A stretch of 64,000 nucleotides of DNA from Anabaena sp. FACHB-1237 (GTDB lineage Bacteria; Cyanobacteriota; Cyanobacteriia; Cyanobacteriales; Nostocaceae): assembly GCF_014696225.1 (NCBI RefSeq), contig NZ_JACJPV010000023.1:1-64000 (forward strand), given 5' to 3'. Below are positions 60 through 61,810 of this stretch, piece by piece (positions within the stretch are counted from its first letter, which is position 1; each line of letters opens with the position of its first letter). The notes below the pieces were generated by a model, which did not search any database, had not been told where the DNA came from, and saw only the letters and a program-made list of their open reading frames with translations. A program made the position numbers and the translations under genes.

Positions 60-163
60 TAAGCTAATGTGCAGCACTCACTGTATAATTAAAAAACCTG
101 AAGTTACAGTAGCACAAGCATCTTGCTTGTATTAATTATTCAAGTTAAAGGCACAACAGCTTA
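60..163 (+). repeat. TA-flanked ~100-bp MITE-like element, copy 1
   Basis: The element runs from AGCTAATGTGC to GCACAACAGCT with a TA on each side; the ends are imperfect inverted repeats (11 of 13 matching when the TA is included). A central palindrome, ACAAGCATCTTGCTTGT, would form a hairpin. Near-identical copies lie elsewhere in the window (for example 4994-5097, 21787-21890, 57491-57594). It carries no ORF, so it would depend on a transposase supplied elsewhere. Confidence 0.85.
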
Positions 164-4993: not shown

Positions 4994-5097
4994 TAAGCTA
5001 ATGTGCAGCACTCACTGTATAATTAAAAAACCTGAAGTTACAGTAGCACAAGCATCTTGCTTGTATTAATTATTCAAGTTAAAGGCACAACAGCTTA
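4994..5097 (+). repeat. TA-flanked MITE-like element, copy 2
   Basis: Nearly identical to the copy at 60-163. It starts AGCTAATGTGC and ends GCACAACAGCT with TA at both sides. No gene is interrupted here. Confidence 0.88.
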
Positions 5098-21766: not shown

Positions 21767-21980
21767 ATTACAGCAGTTTCGGTTATTAAGCTAATGTGCA
21801 GCACTCAGTGTATAATTAAAAAACCAGAAGTTACAGTAGCACAAGCATCTTGCTTGTATTAATTATTCAAGTTAAAGGCACAACAGCTTATGAGGTACAG
21901 ATGTTAATTATAAAACCCTTGTAGTGCAGGCATCTTGCTGTGCTAATAGTGTACCTCATGTAGATGGAATGTGCTGTATC
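21767..21980. repeat. Palindromic repeat family 2, copy interrupted by a MITE
   Basis: The sequence outside 21789-21890 is a close match to the uninterrupted repeat at 22671-22782: the ACAGCAGTTTCGGTTAT start, the GAGGTACAGATGTTAAT segment and the GTGTACCTCATGTAGATGG end. Its right end, GTGCTGTATC, overlaps the stop codon of tsaC. Confidence 0.92.
21787..21890 (+). repeat. TA-flanked MITE-like element, copy 3, nested in repeat family 2
   Basis: AGCTAATGTGC...GCACAACAGCT between TA at 21787-21788 and TA at 21889-21890. The empty relative at 22671-22782 reads GGTTATTATGAGGTAC at the same point, with a single TA. This demonstrates insertion with TA duplication. Confidence 0.97.
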
Positions 21981-22670: not shown

Positions 22671-22782
22671 GATACAGCAGTTTCGGTTATTATGAGGTAC
22701 AGATGTTAATGGTAAAACCCTTGTAATACAGGCATCTTGCTGTGTTCATAGTGTACCTCATGTAGATGGAATGTGCTGTATC
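22671..22782. repeat. Palindromic repeat family 2, intact (empty-site) copy
   Basis: 112 bp with perfect 9-bp inverted ends, GATACAGCA / TGCTGTATC, and an inner inverted pair, ATGAGGTAC (22692) / GTACCTCAT (22753). A possible diverged relative lies at about 39972-40035 (TTACAGCAGTTT, CAGGTACA). It lies between prmC and tsaC. Confidence 0.9.
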
Positions 22783-22802
22783 TGATACACCCTAAAACTA
22801 CA

Positions 22803-32923: not shown

Positions 32924-32978
32924 GATTTATTCTATAGCAGGTGACAGGTGACAGAGGTAAAAGTCTGTTTGTGTGTAG

Positions 32979-33356
32979 GGTGCGTCAGATATCAAGAATC
33001 TGTTTATTTGCAGTTATACATTCTGACGCACCTTGTGTTTAGTATTTAGTAGGGTGCGTCAGATATCGAGAATCTGTTTATTTGCAGTTATACATTCTGA
33101 CGCACCTTGTATTTAGTATTTAGTAGGGTGCGTCAGATATCGAGAATATGTTTGTTTGCAGTCATAAGCTGTTGTGCCTTTAACTTGAATAATTAATACA
33201 AGCAAGATGCTTGTGCTACTGTAACTTCAGGTTTTTTAATTATACAGTGAGTGCTGCACATTAGCTTACATTCTGACGCACCTTGTATTTAGTATTTAGT
33301 AGGGTGCGTCAGATATCAAGAATCTGTTTATTTGCAATCATACATTCTGACGCACC
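32979..33356. repeat. 74-bp tandem array of palindromic repeat family 3, four units, one interrupted
   Basis: Palindromes GGTGCGTCAGA...TCTGACGCACC start at 32979, 33053, 33127 and 33303. Taking out the 102-bp insertion in the third, the spacing is 74 bp throughout. Linkers read TTGTATTTAGTATTTAGTAG. The array fills the gap between the porin and raf1 and could form strong hairpins in either transcript. Confidence 0.93.
33165..33268 (-). repeat. TA-flanked MITE-like element, copy 4, nested in the family 3 array
   Basis: Reverse orientation: AGCTGTTGTGC...GCACATTAGCT. Filled site GCAGTCATA-element-TACATTCTG; the sister unit at 33303-33356 reads GCAATCATACATTCTG with one TA. This is the second direct filled/empty pair in the window. 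Confidence 0.97.
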
Positions 33357-33415
33357 TTGTATTTAGTAGGTGACAGAAGTAAAAGTCTCTGCTAAACTCC
33401 TACCGATATTTTCAA

Positions 33416-34829: not shown

Positions 34830-35190
34830 CTAAAAGGACGGCTTTTCTTGATTTTTAATATACTCCTTTAATATTTCTAGTGGCGCACCTCCTACACAAA
34901 CAGCAAAATAGCTAGGACTCCATAATGCTTCTTTATGGGGTTTTTTATAACCAGCTTGTCCATAACTGCGAATAGATACACCTTTTAAAGAATTTACTAA
35001 GCTAATGTGCAGCACTCACTGTATAATTAAAAAACCTGAAGTTACAGTAGCACAAGCATCTTGCTTGTATTAATTATTCAAGTTAAAAGCACAACAGCTT
35101 ATCTGAGAAATAGATAGTTTAGGCGGATACTCAATAAGTGGATGAATATGATTTTCTTCGCCATTAAACTCAAGCACTTGAAAATTCATT
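34830..35190 (-). pseudogene. IS200/IS605-type transposase TnpA, truncated and split by a MITE
   Basis: The part before the insertion reads FQVLEFNGEENHIHPLIEY then PPKLSIS; after it, LVNSLKGVS continues, then ALWSPSYFAVCVGGAPLEIL. Together these match the middle and end of Y1 HUH transposases of the IS200 family (the usual DHVH/NPPKxS and SLKG blocks). The N-terminal part with the first His-hydrophobic-His motif is mostly missing and the middle is altered. It is not functional. Confidence 0.88.
34998..35101 (+). repeat. TA-flanked MITE-like element, copy 5, inside the tnpA relic
   Basis: AGCTAATGTGC...GCACAACAGCT with TA at 34998-34999 and 35100-35101. Removing it with one TA joins the two parts of the transposase coding sequence in sense, so the insertion happened after (or during) the life of the IS. 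Confidence 0.93.
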
Positions 35191-35257
35191 TTTTCAGCAT
35201 TTTTTCAGCAACTTGTCATTTTTTATAGAGCAATATATAATTAGTTTACTAGCCAAT

Positions 35258-37739: not shown

Positions 37740-38215
37740 GAATTAATTAAATATCTGTAAATATCTGCAATTAGTCTAGCTTTTCTCAAGAAAAATTTTA
37801 ACACCGTTTCTTCACGGGAAATAATATCAACTGTACCTTCCATTCCTAATTGAATATGACAAAGATTTTTACCCTTACCTAAAGTTAAAGTTTCTGGTTT
37901 AATTGTCACTTCATAAAAAGCATTGGGGGCGATCGCCTAATTCCGCTTCAGCAACATTAATAATACCATTAAGTTTATCAGTTTGAGCTTTAATTTGAGT
38001 AAGCTAATGTGCAGCACTCACTGTATAATTAAAAAACCTGAAGTTACAGTAGCACAAGCATCTTGCTTGTATTAATTATTTAATAAAGCGGTAAAGGTAA
38101 ACTCGTTGTAAATAACGCCCAAAACCAGCAATTTTATCTGATTCCTGCTGATAAAAGCGACTTTCATCCGGTAGCAATTTTTTAAACCTTTACCATAAAC
38201 TATCTAACATAATTT
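37740..38215 (-). pseudogene. HlyD/membrane-fusion-type secretion gene remnant, interrupted by a MITE
   Basis: Minus-strand pieces IKAQTDKLNGIINVAEAELG and, after a frame change at about 37930, TIKPETLTLGKGKNLCHIQL then GMEGTVDIISREETVLKFFL match the C-terminal part of HlyD-like adaptor proteins. A MITE copy cuts the gene at 38000. The piece beyond it (LLPDESRFYQQESDKIAGF, then RYLQRVYLYRF) may be an earlier or unrelated segment. Frameshift, deletion and insertion make it non-functional. Confidence 0.65.
38000..38080 (+). repeat. MITE-like element, copy 6, right end lost
   Basis: Left end TA-AGCTAATGTGC and the central palindrome are intact, but the element stops at TTAATTATT and lacks the GCACAACAGCT end. 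Deletion after insertion is the simplest reading. Confidence 0.9.
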
Positions 38216-39863: not shown

Positions 39864-39966
39864 TAAGCTGATGTGTACACTGTATAAATAACCAAAAAAC
39901 CTGAAATTACAGTAGCGCAAGCATCTTGCTTGCATTCATTATCCAAATTAAGAGCATAACAGCTTA
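39864..39966 (+). repeat. MITE-like element, copy 7, diverged
   Basis: TA-AGCTGATGTG...GCATAACAGCT-TA with the central palindrome GCAAGCATCTTGCTTGC. About 20 differences from the main form, plus a short deletion near the left end, indicate an older insertion. A possible family 2 relic follows (about 39972-40035). Confidence 0.85.
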
Positions 39967-45448: not shown

Positions 45449-45552
45449 TAAGCTAATGTGCAGCACTCACTGTATAATTAAAAAACCTAAAGTTACAGTA
45501 GCACAAGCATCTTGCTTGTATTAATTATTCAAGTTAAAAGCACAACAGCTTA
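45449..45552 (+). repeat. TA-flanked MITE-like element, copy 8
   Basis: AGCTAATGTGC...GCACAACAGCT with TA on both sides, directly beside a family 3 palindrome. Confidence 0.9.
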
Positions 45553-49948: not shown

Positions 49949-50052
49949 TAAGCTGTTGTGCTTTTAATTTGGATAATAGATGCAAGCAAGATGCTTGCAC
50001 TACAGTAATTTTAAGTTTTTTAGTTATACAGTGAGTGCTGCACATCAACTTA
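49949..50052 (-). repeat. MITE-like element, copy 9, diverged
   Basis: Reverse orientation: TA-AGCTGTTGTGC on the left, GCACATCAACT-TA on the right, central GCAAGCAAGATGCTTGC. It sits between the YCII gene and pheT, 27 bp upstream of the former's start, so it may affect its promoter. Confidence 0.88.
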
Positions 50053-52785: not shown

Positions 52786-53090
52786 TAAGCTGTTGTGTTT
52801 TTAATTTGGGTAATAGATGCAAGCAAGATGCTTGTGTTACTGTAATTTCAGGTTTTTTGGTTATATAGTCAGTCCTACACATCACCTTAATTTCTCAATT
52901 AATCAGGACTTACCCAAGGGTAATAAATACAAGCAAGATGCTTGTGTTACTGTAATTTCAGGTTTTTTGGTTATATAGTCAGTCCTACACATCAGCTTAA
53001 TTTCTCAATTAATCAGGACTTACCCAAGGGTAATAAATACAAGCAAGATGCTTGTGTTACTGTAATTTCAGGTTTTTTGGTTATATAGTC
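52786..53090 (-). repeat. MITE copy 10 expanded into a 110-bp tandem array beside cas3
   Basis: The left end TA-AGCTGTTGTG is intact. Then a 110-bp unit holding the palindrome and right half of the element, plus the linker TTTCTCAATTAATCAGGACT, occurs about 2.7 times: AAGCAAGATGCTTG lies at 52821, 52931 and 53041. The last unit is cut off 14 bp before the cas3 stop. Direct amplification of a MITE half is the simplest reading. Confidence 0.9.
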
Positions 53091-55856: not shown

Positions 55857-57493
55857 ATCAATTAAGCATAGCTTTAGAACAGAAAGATCGACTGACAACC
55901 ATAGGATTTGGTGAATGTCTGTGTCATTGGCAAATTAATTTACCTTTAAGTAGTTTTCAAGTTTTAGAAACACCTGCAACCAAAGGTAAACCGAAATTTG
56001 GCAGAAAAATGTTAGTACCAGATCTGCGGCGCAATGGCGATGAACCATTATTAATTGATGATGGAGGAGAATATGTTTTTGGTGCTGGTGATAGAGGTGC
56101 AAAACGTCATCAATTGTATTTACAGGTGCTAGAAAAATGTTTACAAGAAACTAACCACGAAGCAGTAAAAGCAGTTTATGATTTTGTCACAAATACAACT
56201 GTAGAACAAATCACCAAAGAGTTAACAGAAATTTATCCACCAGCAGCTAATACAGATTGGTATCGGGATAGATTTGTGTTTCTATTTAAAGGTAAACAAA
56301 TCACCAAAATTCCCATAGTTCAAAAATGGTGGGTTAACTATTATGCCAGTAAACAGGATACCGTTAATGGTGTTTGTTTATTAACAGGTGAACAGACTTC
56401 AACAATGGGGCGAAAAATGCCCATGATGGTTAAAGGTGTTCCTGGTGCTGCTACTTCTGGCGCAGCTATTAGTAGTTTTGATAAAGCCGCTTATCAGTCT
56501 CACGGATGGGAGGGAAATATTAACGCTCCCATAGGTTTTGAAAGTGCTGTGAGATTTCATAAAGCATTAGATTTTTTACTTAATAGTGACACCAACCGTT
56601 ATAAATTAGGAGATCAGGTTTTTGTTTATTGGGGTGAAGAAGATGGTTTAGGTATTAATCCTCAAATCTGGGAAGATATTCGCTTTAAATCTATTTTTAC
56701 TAGTCTCCATCATCCTAAAAATTTTAATCCAGAGGATATGCAATCTCGCTTTTATCTTGCTATTCTCAAAGGTAATAAAGGCAGAATTTCCCTTAGTGGT
56801 TGGAGTGAAGTTACTACCCAAAAAATCAAAGATTCTATTCAGGAGTTTATTGAATGTCAGCAACTTAATAATTTATCACCTAGTCCTATGTGGATGTTGT
56901 GTAATAGTGCTTTTTTGAATCCCAGTAAGGAACACACTGACAGAATAGCAACTGCTTTAGTTAAGGCTGGTTTTTTAGGTGAAGCATTACCGGATGAATA
57001 TGCCCACAGAATCATTGATAGGATATGCAGTGAAAAGGAGTTTAATGATTTTCCTTCAAAATGTAAACAATTTAGATATTTTCCCAGACTTCAAGGTTTA
57101 TTACTTTATTTAGCCACCAATAATATGAAATATCCCACAGGTGATCCAAAATTTGATACTGCTTACACTTTAGGCAGAATTGCATTTTTAATGCACCAAG
57201 CACAAGTTAAAGCTCAAAATATGACCAGTGAAGATAACACTAATGTCATGCGTAGTTTAAAAACTTTATCTTCCACACCTACTCAAGTGTTTGCTAGGCT
57301 TTGTCATGGTTGTACCCATTATTATTTAGAAAGTGATAATAGTAAATACATTAAAAAGTTACTAGCTGAAGAATTTGAAAGTTTTGATATTTCCATACTC
57401 CCAGAGGTGCTAGATTTAAAATCTCAAGCTTTGTTTTTTCAAGGTTGGTGGCAAAAAAGAGGTGAATATTTTACTAAAAAAACAGATGAATAA
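55841..57493 (+). CDS. cas8c: Type I-C Cascade large subunit Cas8c (Csd1), C-terminus shortened by a MITE
   Basis: Large subunit that reads the PAM and starts target unwinding. The 550-aa protein carries the Csd1 signs NGVCLLTGEQT, VKGVPGAATSGAAISSFDKA and GINAPIGFESAVRFH-like wording. It starts inside the cas5c end. The present TAA stop (57491-57493) is made by the TA duplication plus the first A of a MITE (57491-57594). Joining across the insertion with one TA would add 22 codons (YSFEDYCSHEDSWH, then VNINQTYM) before TAG at 57659-57661. The core looks intact, but the C-terminal truncation could affect assembly. Confidence 0.92.
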   Translation: MLQELNQLSIALEQKDRLTTIGFGECLCHWQINLPLSSFQVLETPATKGKPKFGRKMLVPDLRRNGDEPLLIDDGGEYVFGAGDRGAKRHQLYLQVLEKCLQETNHEAVKAVYDFVTNTTVEQITKELTEIYPPAANTDWYRDRFVFLFKGKQITKIPIVQKWWVNYYASKQDTVNGVCLLTGEQTSTMGRKMPMMVKGVPGAATSGAAISSFDKAAYQSHGWEGNINAPIGFESAVRFHKALDFLLNSDTNRYKLGDQVFVYWGEEDGLGINPQIWEDIRFKSIFTSLHHPKNFNPEDMQSRFYLAILKGNKGRISLSGWSEVTTQKIKDSIQEFIECQQLNNLSPSPMWMLCNSAFLNPSKEHTDRIATALVKAGFLGEALPDEYAHRIIDRICSEKEFNDFPSKCKQFRYFPRLQGLLLYLATNNMKYPTGDPKFDTAYTLGRIAFLMHQAQVKAQNMTSEDNTNVMRSLKTLSSTPTQVFARLCHGCTHYYLESDNSKYIKKLLAEEFESFDISILPEVLDLKSQALFFQGWWQKRGEYFTKKTDE

Positions 57494-57594
57494 GCTAATG
57501 TGCAGCACTCACTGTCTAATTAAAAAACCTGAAGTTACAGTAGCACAAGCATCTTGCTTGTATTAATTATTCAAGTTAAAGGCACAACAGCTTA
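57491..57594 (+). repeat. TA-flanked MITE-like element, copy 11, inserted in the cas8c gene end
   Basis: AGCTAATGTGC...GCACAACAGCT with TA at 57491-57492 and 57593-57594. It differs from the main form at very few positions (for example GTCTAATT for GTATAATT), so it is young. It separates cas8c from cas7c and enlarges the intergenic gap. Confidence 0.95.
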
Positions 57595-58864: not shown

Positions 58865-61810
58865 GTGAAAATCGCTGTAATAGGTGATTTTGGATTGAAA
58901 CAATTCGAGAAAGTTTTTTGGTAGCCATAAACAGGGTGAAAATCGCTGTAATAGGTGATTTTGGATTGAAACTTTTGGGGTTAACAAACAAGAGTCAAAT
59001 CATTTCGTGAAAATCGCTGTAATAGGTGATTTTGGATTGAAACGGCCAAATGTCCGATGCTGAAATTGAGGATTGTGGTGAAAATCGCTGTAATAGGTGA
59101 TTTTGGATTGAAACGTTTTCAAACCTCCTATAATTGCTTTCAACAATGCCCAGTGAAAATCGCTGTAATAGGTGATTTTGGATTGAAACCATAAGATTTA
59201 GAAATAGCTGACAACTTTGACTGAAGTGAAAATCGCTGTAATAGGTGATTTTGGATTGAAACAAATCATTTTAAATTCCCCGGTAACACGCCAAAAAATA
59301 ACGTGAAAATCGCTGTAATAGGTGATTTTGGATTGAAACCAAGAATTACCATCGGAAACCCAAGAACAGATTTAGTGAAAATCGCTGTAATAGGTGATTT
59401 TGGATTGAAACCTAGCCAAAGAAAATCTATTTCCATAAGTATAATTGTGAAAATCGCTGTAATAGGTGATTTTGGATTGAAACCTTATGTGTAGCGATGA
59501 ACAATTTTATTACTTATTGTGAAAATCGCTGTAATAGGTGATTTTGGATTGAAACTCTTAATTGAAGATTTAAAAATTAAAGATTTAGTTGTGAAAATCG
59601 CTGTAATAGGTGATTTTGGATTGAAACTCCCATATCTTCCACTCTGTGAGTTTATTATTATGTGAAAATCGCTGTAATAGGTGATTTTGGATTGAAACTT
59701 CCAGCATTTTAACCACCAGGTCGTAGCCTATAGTGAAAATCGCTGTAATAGGTGATTTTGGATTGAAACTCAATCCTGAGAAATTCTACTCTCATGTAGA
59801 AAGTGAAAATCGCTGTAATAGGTGATTTTGGATTGAAACCTAGCCAAACTTAATATTACACCTGAGATGTCTGGTGAAAATCGCTGTAATAGGTGATTTT
59901 GGATTGAAACTTAAGTTTCTTATCGTTCAAAAAAGGGATATAATTTAATGCGTGAAAATCGCTGTAATAGGTGATTTTGGATTGAAACCGAGATCGCTAC
60001 AACTTTTTTTGCCTAGTGTAATTCGTGAAAATCGCTGTAATAGGTGATTTTGGATTGAAACAAATATTCACCCGCTTTAGAGTAAAGCGTGGTGTAGTGA
60101 AAATCGCTGTAATAGGTGATTTTGGATTGAAACTTAAACAAGGATACCTGAGATTCCTTATTTACATTGTGAAAATCGCTGTAATAGGTGATTTTGGATT
60201 GAAACAATGAAAATTATTAACGCTTGTATGGCGATCGCATCAGAAAGGTGAAAATCGCTGTAATAGGTGATTTTGGATTGAAACCTTTTAATAGCGGTTT
60301 CGGAATAATCAAAAATCTTGTGAAAATCGCTGTAATAGGTGATTTTGGATTGAAACAGTACGAGCGATCGCCCCCACACCTAAGATTTTTGTGAAAATCG
60401 CTGTAATAGGTGATTTTGGATTGAAACTTTCAGGAGGTTGCGCTTGCCCCGACATAAGGAAGTGAAAATCGCTGTAATAGGTGATTTTGGATTGAAACTA
60501 ATAATCCTTATGTCCTGGGATGCCCAGGGCATAACTCCAGTGAAAATCGCTGTAATAGGTGATTTTGGATTGAAACTAAACTTAGCTCAGTATTAGAAAA
60601 AACAAAAAAAAGTGAAAATCGCTGTAATAGGTGATTTTGGATTGAAACTAGCCAAATTAATCATGGCTTCTTGTTTGTCTTTAGTGAAAATCGCTGTAAT
60701 AGGTGATTTTGGATTGAAACTCTGTAGGTACCACGCTTACACATCCCACAACAACGTGAAAATCGCTGTAATAGGTGATTTTGGATTGAAACTTTACCCT
60801 GGGAAACTAACAATTCTAGTTTCTGGTGAAAATCGCTGTAATAGGTGATTTTGGATTGAAACTTAACTGTTCTAACGATAGACTATACAGAAAGTAAAGT
60901 CGTGAAAATCGCTGTAATAGGTGATTTTGGATTGAAACCTGAAATTTCATAGCCCTTTTCAGCCATTCTTGCTAGTGAAAATCGCTGTAATAGGTGATTT
61001 TGGATTGAAACAATGCTGAAAATCAGAGACATAGAATTGCTTTAGTGAAAATCGCTGTAATAGGTGATTTTGGATTGAAACAATGCTGAAAATCAGAGAC
61101 ATAGAATTGCTTTAGTGAAAATCGCTGTAATAGGTGATTTTGGATTGAAACCATCCAGCATTGTACAGATTGATAGACGCTAAAAAGTGAAAATCGCTGT
61201 AATAGGTGATTTTGGATTGAAACTCGTACTCGGATGGATTGGTTTTTCCTACATAGGGATGTGAAAATCGCTGTAATAGGTGATTTTGGATTGAAACCAC
61301 AAATTAGCACGAGATTATGTTGCTAAAATTGTGTGAAAATCGCTGTAATAGGTGATTTTGGATTGAAACGCGCTACTTCCTGCTTGCTGTAAGGAATCAG
61401 CTTAGTGAAAATCGCTGTAATAGGTGATTTTGGATTGAAACGAAGAAAAATTGATAGAGAATTGGTCAGAATATCAGTGAAAATCGCTGTAATAGGTGAT
61501 TTTGGATTGAAACATGAAAACAACTTATAACTGTCATGATGTCAATCAAAAAAAGTGAAAATCGCTGTAATAGGTGATTTTGGATTGAAACGATTGGAGT
61601 ACAATCTACTGGAGAATCCAATCCAGTGAAAATCGCTGTAATAGGTGATTTTGGATTGAAACACAATTATAATTGTAATATATAGCATGAACAGGATGTG
61701 AAGTGAAAATCGCTGTAATAGGTGATTTTGAATTGAAACTAAATCATCAATATCTTTGCGGGATTGCTCCAAAGTGAAAATCGCTGTAATAAGCGATTTT
61801 GGATTGAAAC
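58865..61810 (+). CRISPR. CRISPR array, 41 repeats of 37 bp, 40 spacers
   Basis: The repeat starts GTGAAAATCGCTGT and ends TTTTGGATTGAAAC. First repeat 58865-58901, last 61774-61810. All but the last two are identical as far as I can read; repeat 40 (61703) has GAATTG for GGATTG and repeat 41 has AAGCG for AGGTG. These degenerate units mark the distal end. AAAATC/GATTTT inside the repeat gives a stem of about nine pairs with wobble. Spacers are about 31-43 bp. Two neighbouring spacers (61012-61044 and 61082-61114) are identical. Transcription is expected in the + direction from the leader. Confidence 0.98.

Follow-up and report, generated by a model that had tools for sequence, protein, structure and literature searches.

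How did a 100-bp sequence come to stand, with a TA dinucleotide on either side, inside one unit of an array of 74-bp repeats, and what kind of enzyme may have placed it there? The sequence occupies positions 33167-33266 of the 64,000-nucleotide stretch analysed here (the window), which is one part of a genome of 4.65 Mb in 95 contigs. It begins and ends with AGCT, and the filled site reads GCAGTCATA-AGCTGTTGTGC..100 bp..GCACATTAGCT-TACATTCTG, while the adjoining units of the array read GCAGTTATACATTCTG or GCAATCATACATTCTG. A preliminary description of this DNA had taken the third unit as filled and its neighbours, each with a single TA, as empty, and this pair stands as described.

Copies of the element and their TA flanks

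The blastn comparison of the window with the sequence at 33167-33266 found ten copies at full length and one that is truncated, together with two fragments within a 110-bp tandem array. These copies of a miniature inverted-repeat transposable element (MITE) and the features around them are as follows.

32976-33368, plus strand: host array of 74-bp units, GTAGGGTGCGTCAGA...TCTGACGCACC, the MITE having uninterrupted units to its left and right
33165-33166, no strand: TA target duplication, left
33167-33266, plus strand: MITE copy of 100 bp, within unit three of the 74-bp array (sequence, blastn)
33198-33219, minus strand: REP-like hairpin with a GTAG tag that forms the core of the MITE; minus-strand sequence GTAGCACAAGCATCTTGCTTGT
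33267-33268, no strand: TA target duplication, right
62-161, minus strand: full-length copy, 100%, TA on both sides (blastn)
4996-5095, minus strand: full-length copy, 100%, TA on both sides (blastn)
21789-21888, minus strand: full-length copy, 98%, at a TA on the border of a family-2 repeat's inner part
22671-22785, no strand: uninterrupted family-2 repeat with a single-TA empty site; inner part 22693-22760, ends TGAGGTACA/TGTACCTCA
35000-35099, minus strand: full-length copy, 99%, which interrupts a Y1 (IS200-type) transposase remnant
37999-38088, minus strand: copy without the GTTGTGC end, 97% over 92 columns (blastn)
39866-39964, minus strand: diverged copy, 81%, TA on both sides
45451-45550, minus strand: full-length copy, 98%, adjoining a unit of the 74-bp family
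49951-50050, plus strand: diverged copy of the TTTAATTTGGATAATAGATGC subfamily, 85%, TA on both sides
52788-52887, plus strand: diverged copy, 82%, TA on both sides, starting the 110-bp tandem array
52921-52999 and 53031-53089: partial copies within the 110-bp tandem array
57493-57592, minus strand: full-length copy, 99%, TA on both sides

Seven of the ten full-length copies, the query being one, are 98-100% identical to the query and three (39866, 49951 and 52788) are 81-85% identical, in keeping with the earlier impression of a family that runs from near-identical to diverged members; all ten have TA on both sides. The preliminary description had counted at least 11 copies, and a blastn match was found at all 11 of its positions, although the copy at 38000 lacks one end. 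The two ends of the element are imperfect inverted repeats, agreeing in nine of the first 11 bases. Folding of the whole element was just mildly better than that of shuffled sequences (z of -1.8 and -2.3), and therefore no structure is claimed for the element as a whole. A search of the window against Rfam gave nothing at the gathering score, and the plasmid records searched gave no match.

Tandem arrays built of parts of the MITE occur at 52786-53090 in the window, with 110-bp spacing, and at about 90237-90600 on another contig (G000:C12), with a spacing of about 76 bp; these arrays show that copies can grow by recombination too. A long array of a different kind lies at 59007-61513, where a 37-base repeat, GTGAAAATCGCTGTAATAGGTGATTTTGGATTGAAAC, recurs at a period of about 72 bp with varied spacers, and looks like a CRISPR array.

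Beyond the window, the 13-base end including TA, TAAGCTGTTGTGC, occurs 221 times genome-wide and its reversed control not at all; the non-coding 100-base element is present at about two hundred genomic places, nearly always at TA. Copies were examined individually in an 864-kb set consisting of the window and 800 kb from seven contigs with earlier matches, and thus not a random sample. This set holds 112 MITE matches, 73 of them full length. Among the latter, 26 are 100% identical over the aligned part (query included), 27 fall at 97-99.9%, nine at 90-97%, ten at 80-90% and one below 80%, and the exact same 100 bases occur in 25 copies. The element is thereby short (100 bp), non-coding and present in many near-identical copies, 53 of the 73 full copies in the 864-kb set being at 97% or more.

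The TA flanks are nearly as regular across the set as they are in the window. More specifically, among 70 copies with exact ends TA is present at the 5' side in 69, at the 3' side in 68 and on both sides in 67, and in 49 of the 50 copies with at least 97% identity both sides have it. TA makes up 9.5% of dinucleotide positions in the set (82,312 in 864 kb), so that about 0.6 of 70 copies would be expected to carry it on both sides, and chance is therefore excluded. The preliminary description had made its transposition reading depend on TA pairs being seen at most copies in the genome, and such pairs are present at 67 of 70. Around the target TA of 67 distinct targets, T at position -3 is found in 57% against 34% at all TA sites (chi-square 21.2, 3 degrees of freedom) and A at position +3 in 55% against 34% (chi-square 18.7, 3 degrees of freedom), a target preference that is symmetric but weak. 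Full palindromes around the target TA showed no clear excess, whether of 6 bp (6.0% versus 6.4%) or of 8 bp (3.0% versus 1.6%). A single copy of the 73 lies within an open reading frame of at least 100 amino acids, compared with 74% of TA sites, and this avoidance is overstated because a copy that interrupts a reading frame can hide that frame.

Empty sites in other copies of the host repeats were sought by joining the flanks of the 73 copies with one TA and comparing them to 87 sequences of the same genome (1.10 Mb, overlaps included). Nineteen copies gave a qualifying match, of which six were dropped as matching their own locus only and two as a tandem MITE pair, leaving 11. At nine of these 11 testable insertions the uninterrupted paralogue elsewhere in the genome aligns without a gap across a single TA; in the other two the junction is off, one being 5 bp short and one having 7 bp extra. 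The clean empty sites are other copies of the host repeat in the same genome, not the same locus in another strain. Taken with the TA flanks, they bear out the claim that the element was inserted at TA with duplication of the dinucleotide.

The hosts of the nine clean sites are varied. Two are GGTGCGTCAGA-type repeats, one of them the 74-bp array, whose unit itself consists of GTAG followed by GGTGCGTCAGA...TCTGACGCACC. One is the family-2 repeat, at which the second filled and empty pair of the preliminary description was also confirmed: the site filled at 21789-21888 reads GGTTATTA-[100]-TATGAGG and the uninterrupted copy near 22671-22785 reads GGTTATTATGAGG. Three further sites lie at different places in, or directly beside, an IS200-type element, and the remaining three were not assigned to a kind of repeat. 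At 35000-35099, Pfam matches to Y1_Tnp flank the copy (34848-35003 and 35100-35210), and uninterrupted relatives of this remnant lie on contigs C1, C12 and C15, the gene on C1 being named IS200/IS605 by NCBIfam.

Each of these pairs could in principle record precise loss of the element from one paralogue rather than its insertion into the other, and a single pair gives no direction. However, the same difference recurs at nine insertions in separate places, whose hosts include at least three recognized types of repeat, and for some hosts a single interrupted copy stands against many uninterrupted relatives, which leaves precise loss hardly credible as the general explanation.

Same-locus comparison was attempted at the Raf1 locus. 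The order of the Raf1 gene and the next gene is kept in 69 of 80 loci of named relatives, and the intergenic DNA at these 80 loci, all from other genera, gave no alignment to that of the window. The intergenic length (a median of 1,423 bp in the relatives versus 1,183 bp in the window) is not telling. Across all 80 loci there is one MITE-like match, at 69% identity and in another place (L124).

IS630 elements with the same ends

The preliminary description had suggested a transposase of the IS630/Tc1-mariner type as the driver, and the terminal sequences speak to this directly. The 19-base end TAAGCTGTTGTGCNTTTAA is found in eight of 40 genomes searched, including that of the window, with 15 sites outside the latter. 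At three of these 15 (two in G001, one in G025) the end closes an IS630 transposase gene, the stop codon lying inside the end; at the other 12 no IS630 gene was seen beside it. The protein of G001 (L073) matches NF033545 (IS630 transposase) at 2.5e-68 and PF13358 (DDE_3) at 1.7e-36. Across the order, this transposase is present, whole or in part, in 84 of 388 genomes at E<=1e-60.

Both ends were present in 26 of 30 fetched transposase loci by script and in 27 by reading, most of them about 1.19 kb apart. The script accepted both ends within 6 mismatches of 19; its 26 includes one locus whose 'left end' looks like chance (L200) and misses one in which the right end was mis-picked (L179) and another with 7 mismatches yet a TAAGC start (L196). 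Among 600 shuffled stretches of 400 bases the best match usually had 7-9 mismatches, and 34 had 6 or fewer. The MITE and an IS630-family element thus have terminal sequences in common, identical over the 19-base end at three sites and recognizable at 26 of 30 loci. The same ends bound elements of about 1.19 kb in relatives, and this sequence likeness supports an IS630 reading of the MITE, under which an IS630 transposase would have mobilized it in trans.

The right end of the window's subfamily is less close to the IS ends, with a poor ungapped match of 17 of 30 bases, and has drifted; it is tied to them mainly through one relative (G398) and through older copies in the same genome. In G398, the right end of the MITE agrees with the left end of an IS (L201) in 26 of 30 bases, and the IS630 copy of G398 has related ends and an internal stop. 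MITE matches at E<=0.001 occur in 30 of 145 genomes of the family, including that of the window, many of them over the ends or the core only. Near full-length copies were found at 91-94% identity in G398, where six of 114 candidates were scored, and at 91% in G271 (one copy), and both genomes also gave transposase matches.

In the genome of the window no matching IS630 transposase was found in the assembly, the best candidates being a protein 37% identical over the DNA-binding part and a remnant at 41%; the MITE therefore looks orphaned. Two further loci matching PF13358 were rejected as drivers, one (L062) having TATGAGGTACA at both ends and the other (L061) an end similar to TATGAGGTACA at one side. 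Such ends agree with the family-2 repeat's inner part and do not suit the 100-bp element. The family-2 repeat itself looks nested, with a TA-TGAGGTACA...TGTACCTCA inner part like the IS630 remnant L062 set within outer TACAGCA/TGCTGTA arms, and its core is a GTAG hairpin as well. Five end-like matches lie outside the MITE matches in the 864-kb set. The DNA-binding match at 37% is a frame of 211 amino acids at about 1210-1842 of locus L093 (G000:C1:203231) that covers only the DNA-binding half of an IS630 transposase and stands just before a gene resembling, by eye, a peptidase-containing ABC transporter; this frame is possibly a domesticated transposase domain.

The proposed driver is therefore upheld by the ends that bound IS630 transposase genes in relatives, but not by its detection in the same genome: the whole-genome search found the end 221 times, whereas no IS630-type element with matching ends, such as a strict type I MITE has in its own genome, was detected in the assembly. 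Transposases of the IS5 family (IS427 group) can duplicate TA too. Movement by such an enzyme is compatible with the TA duplication alone, and no IS630 copy bounded by these ends was detected in the genome of the window; nevertheless, IS630 elements of many relatives have the terminal bases of the MITE on either side of the IS630 gene, and an IS5-family mover is accordingly very improbable.

The GTAG hairpin core

Inside the element, the core is a 22-base unit that on the minus strand comprises GTAG, one base and a 7-bp stem with a 3-base loop. Within 5 mismatches it has 157 matches in the 864-kb set, 112 in MITE matches and 45 outside, and the reversed control has none; among those outside are matches in the family-2 repeat and in tandem arrays as well as isolated ones. 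The core has the features of a GTAG-type REP, a tag beside a short palindrome in dispersed copies. Among nine MITEs of relatives with IS630 ends, four carry the window's core and five carry other cores, and CTAC (= GTAG) stands beside a hairpin, by reading, in seven of the nine, including four of the five with other cores; one of the latter (L256) keeps CTAC with a poor palindrome.

The occurrence of the core outside the MITE (45 of 157) leaves room for a different account, in which recombination or gene conversion multiplied the copies, or a RAYT moved them as REP-like hairpins, and TA is simply a piece of the repeat. A RAYT-like gene at C23:140363 (L267) matches NF047646 at 4.5e-17, below the curated cut-off, and the tandem arrays indicate that some copies grew by recombination. 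Against this account, the unit stops sharply at the IS630 termini and not at the hairpin, the clean empty sites lack exactly 100 bp and one TA, the flanks differ between copies at 67 distinct targets, and whole units without TA on both sides number only 3 of 70, one TA being missing in each. As the main route of spread it is highly unlikely. The 3.3-kb locus of the RAYT-like gene, the one weakly matching gene examined, contains no copy of the core REP within 5 mismatches. Read from the sequence, this gene is flanked by GTAGGGTGCG-like GTAG repeats similar to the unit of the 74-bp array.

A REP core within IS630 ends is the least ordinary part of this layout, and the mosaic reading of it is a lead rather than a result. 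One could go further and imagine a modular lineage of two systems, in which IS630-type ends repeatedly carry an exchangeable GTAG REP core, a DDE transposase spreads RAYT (HUH) cargo and each helps the other across the Nostocales; this seems to us unlikely.

Origin of the element and its meaning

The element is very probably an IS630-type MITE with ends from the Nostocales that was moved in trans into TA sites in a recent burst, the source of its driver being no longer visible. Its ends would derive from an IS630-family insertion sequence of the Nostocales, between which non-coding DNA including the GTAG-tagged REP-like hairpin would have come to lie. An IS630 transposase acting in trans would bind these ends and cut the element out; the excised element would be joined into a TA dinucleotide, and gap repair would leave TA on both sides. 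A recent burst may have made one subfamily very common, and the transposase source may later have been lost from the genome. We infer what the driver was, that the burst was recent and that the driver was later lost, and because the transposase was not detected in the genome, present-day mobilization here is unproven.

Cut-and-paste chemistry would fit by analogy with ISY100 of Synechocystis, a cyanobacterial IS630 element that was excised and inserted at TA with duplication in 34 of 39 products, and of which a mini-ISY100 that keeps just 30 bp from each end remains mobile (PMC2170065). The likeness lies in the duplicated TA target and in the ends that the window element has in common with IS630 elements of relatives; unlike ISY100, the window element is 100 bp long and without a transposase gene, and the two are likened by behaviour (PMC2170065). 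The MITEs described in Anabaena sp. strain 90, a related cyanobacterium, are likewise short and mostly intergenic, with 147 copies, and one IS630 type, disrupted, is listed for that genome (PMC3542288). Those MITEs were placed in type II, their ends being found on no IS of the same genome, whereas for the window MITE, likened to them by description, matching IS630 elements were found in relatives (PMC3542288). Nezha is another cyanobacterial MITE family, likened here by name only, as cited in PMC10969869 and PMC3733652. GTAG-tagged REPs within palindromes are described in Anabaena variabilis, which likewise places a GTAG hairpin inside a longer inverted-repeat unit; the consensus there is different, and IS630 is unmentioned in the main text of that report (PMC3733652). 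A literature text search for the end sequences returned nothing on the subject by title.

As a genomic parasite the element belongs to a known kind, of which it is a well-documented case. Paralogous empty sites within one genome serve as built-in controls for its insertion. Matching ends in relatives here link a cyanobacterial MITE to a family of transposases, whereas the strain 90 MITEs had no driver IS assigned to them in their report, and this suggests that relatives may retain a driver that the host genome no longer has. The REP-like core within IS630 ends further suggests that the two kinds of small bacterial repeat are not independent.
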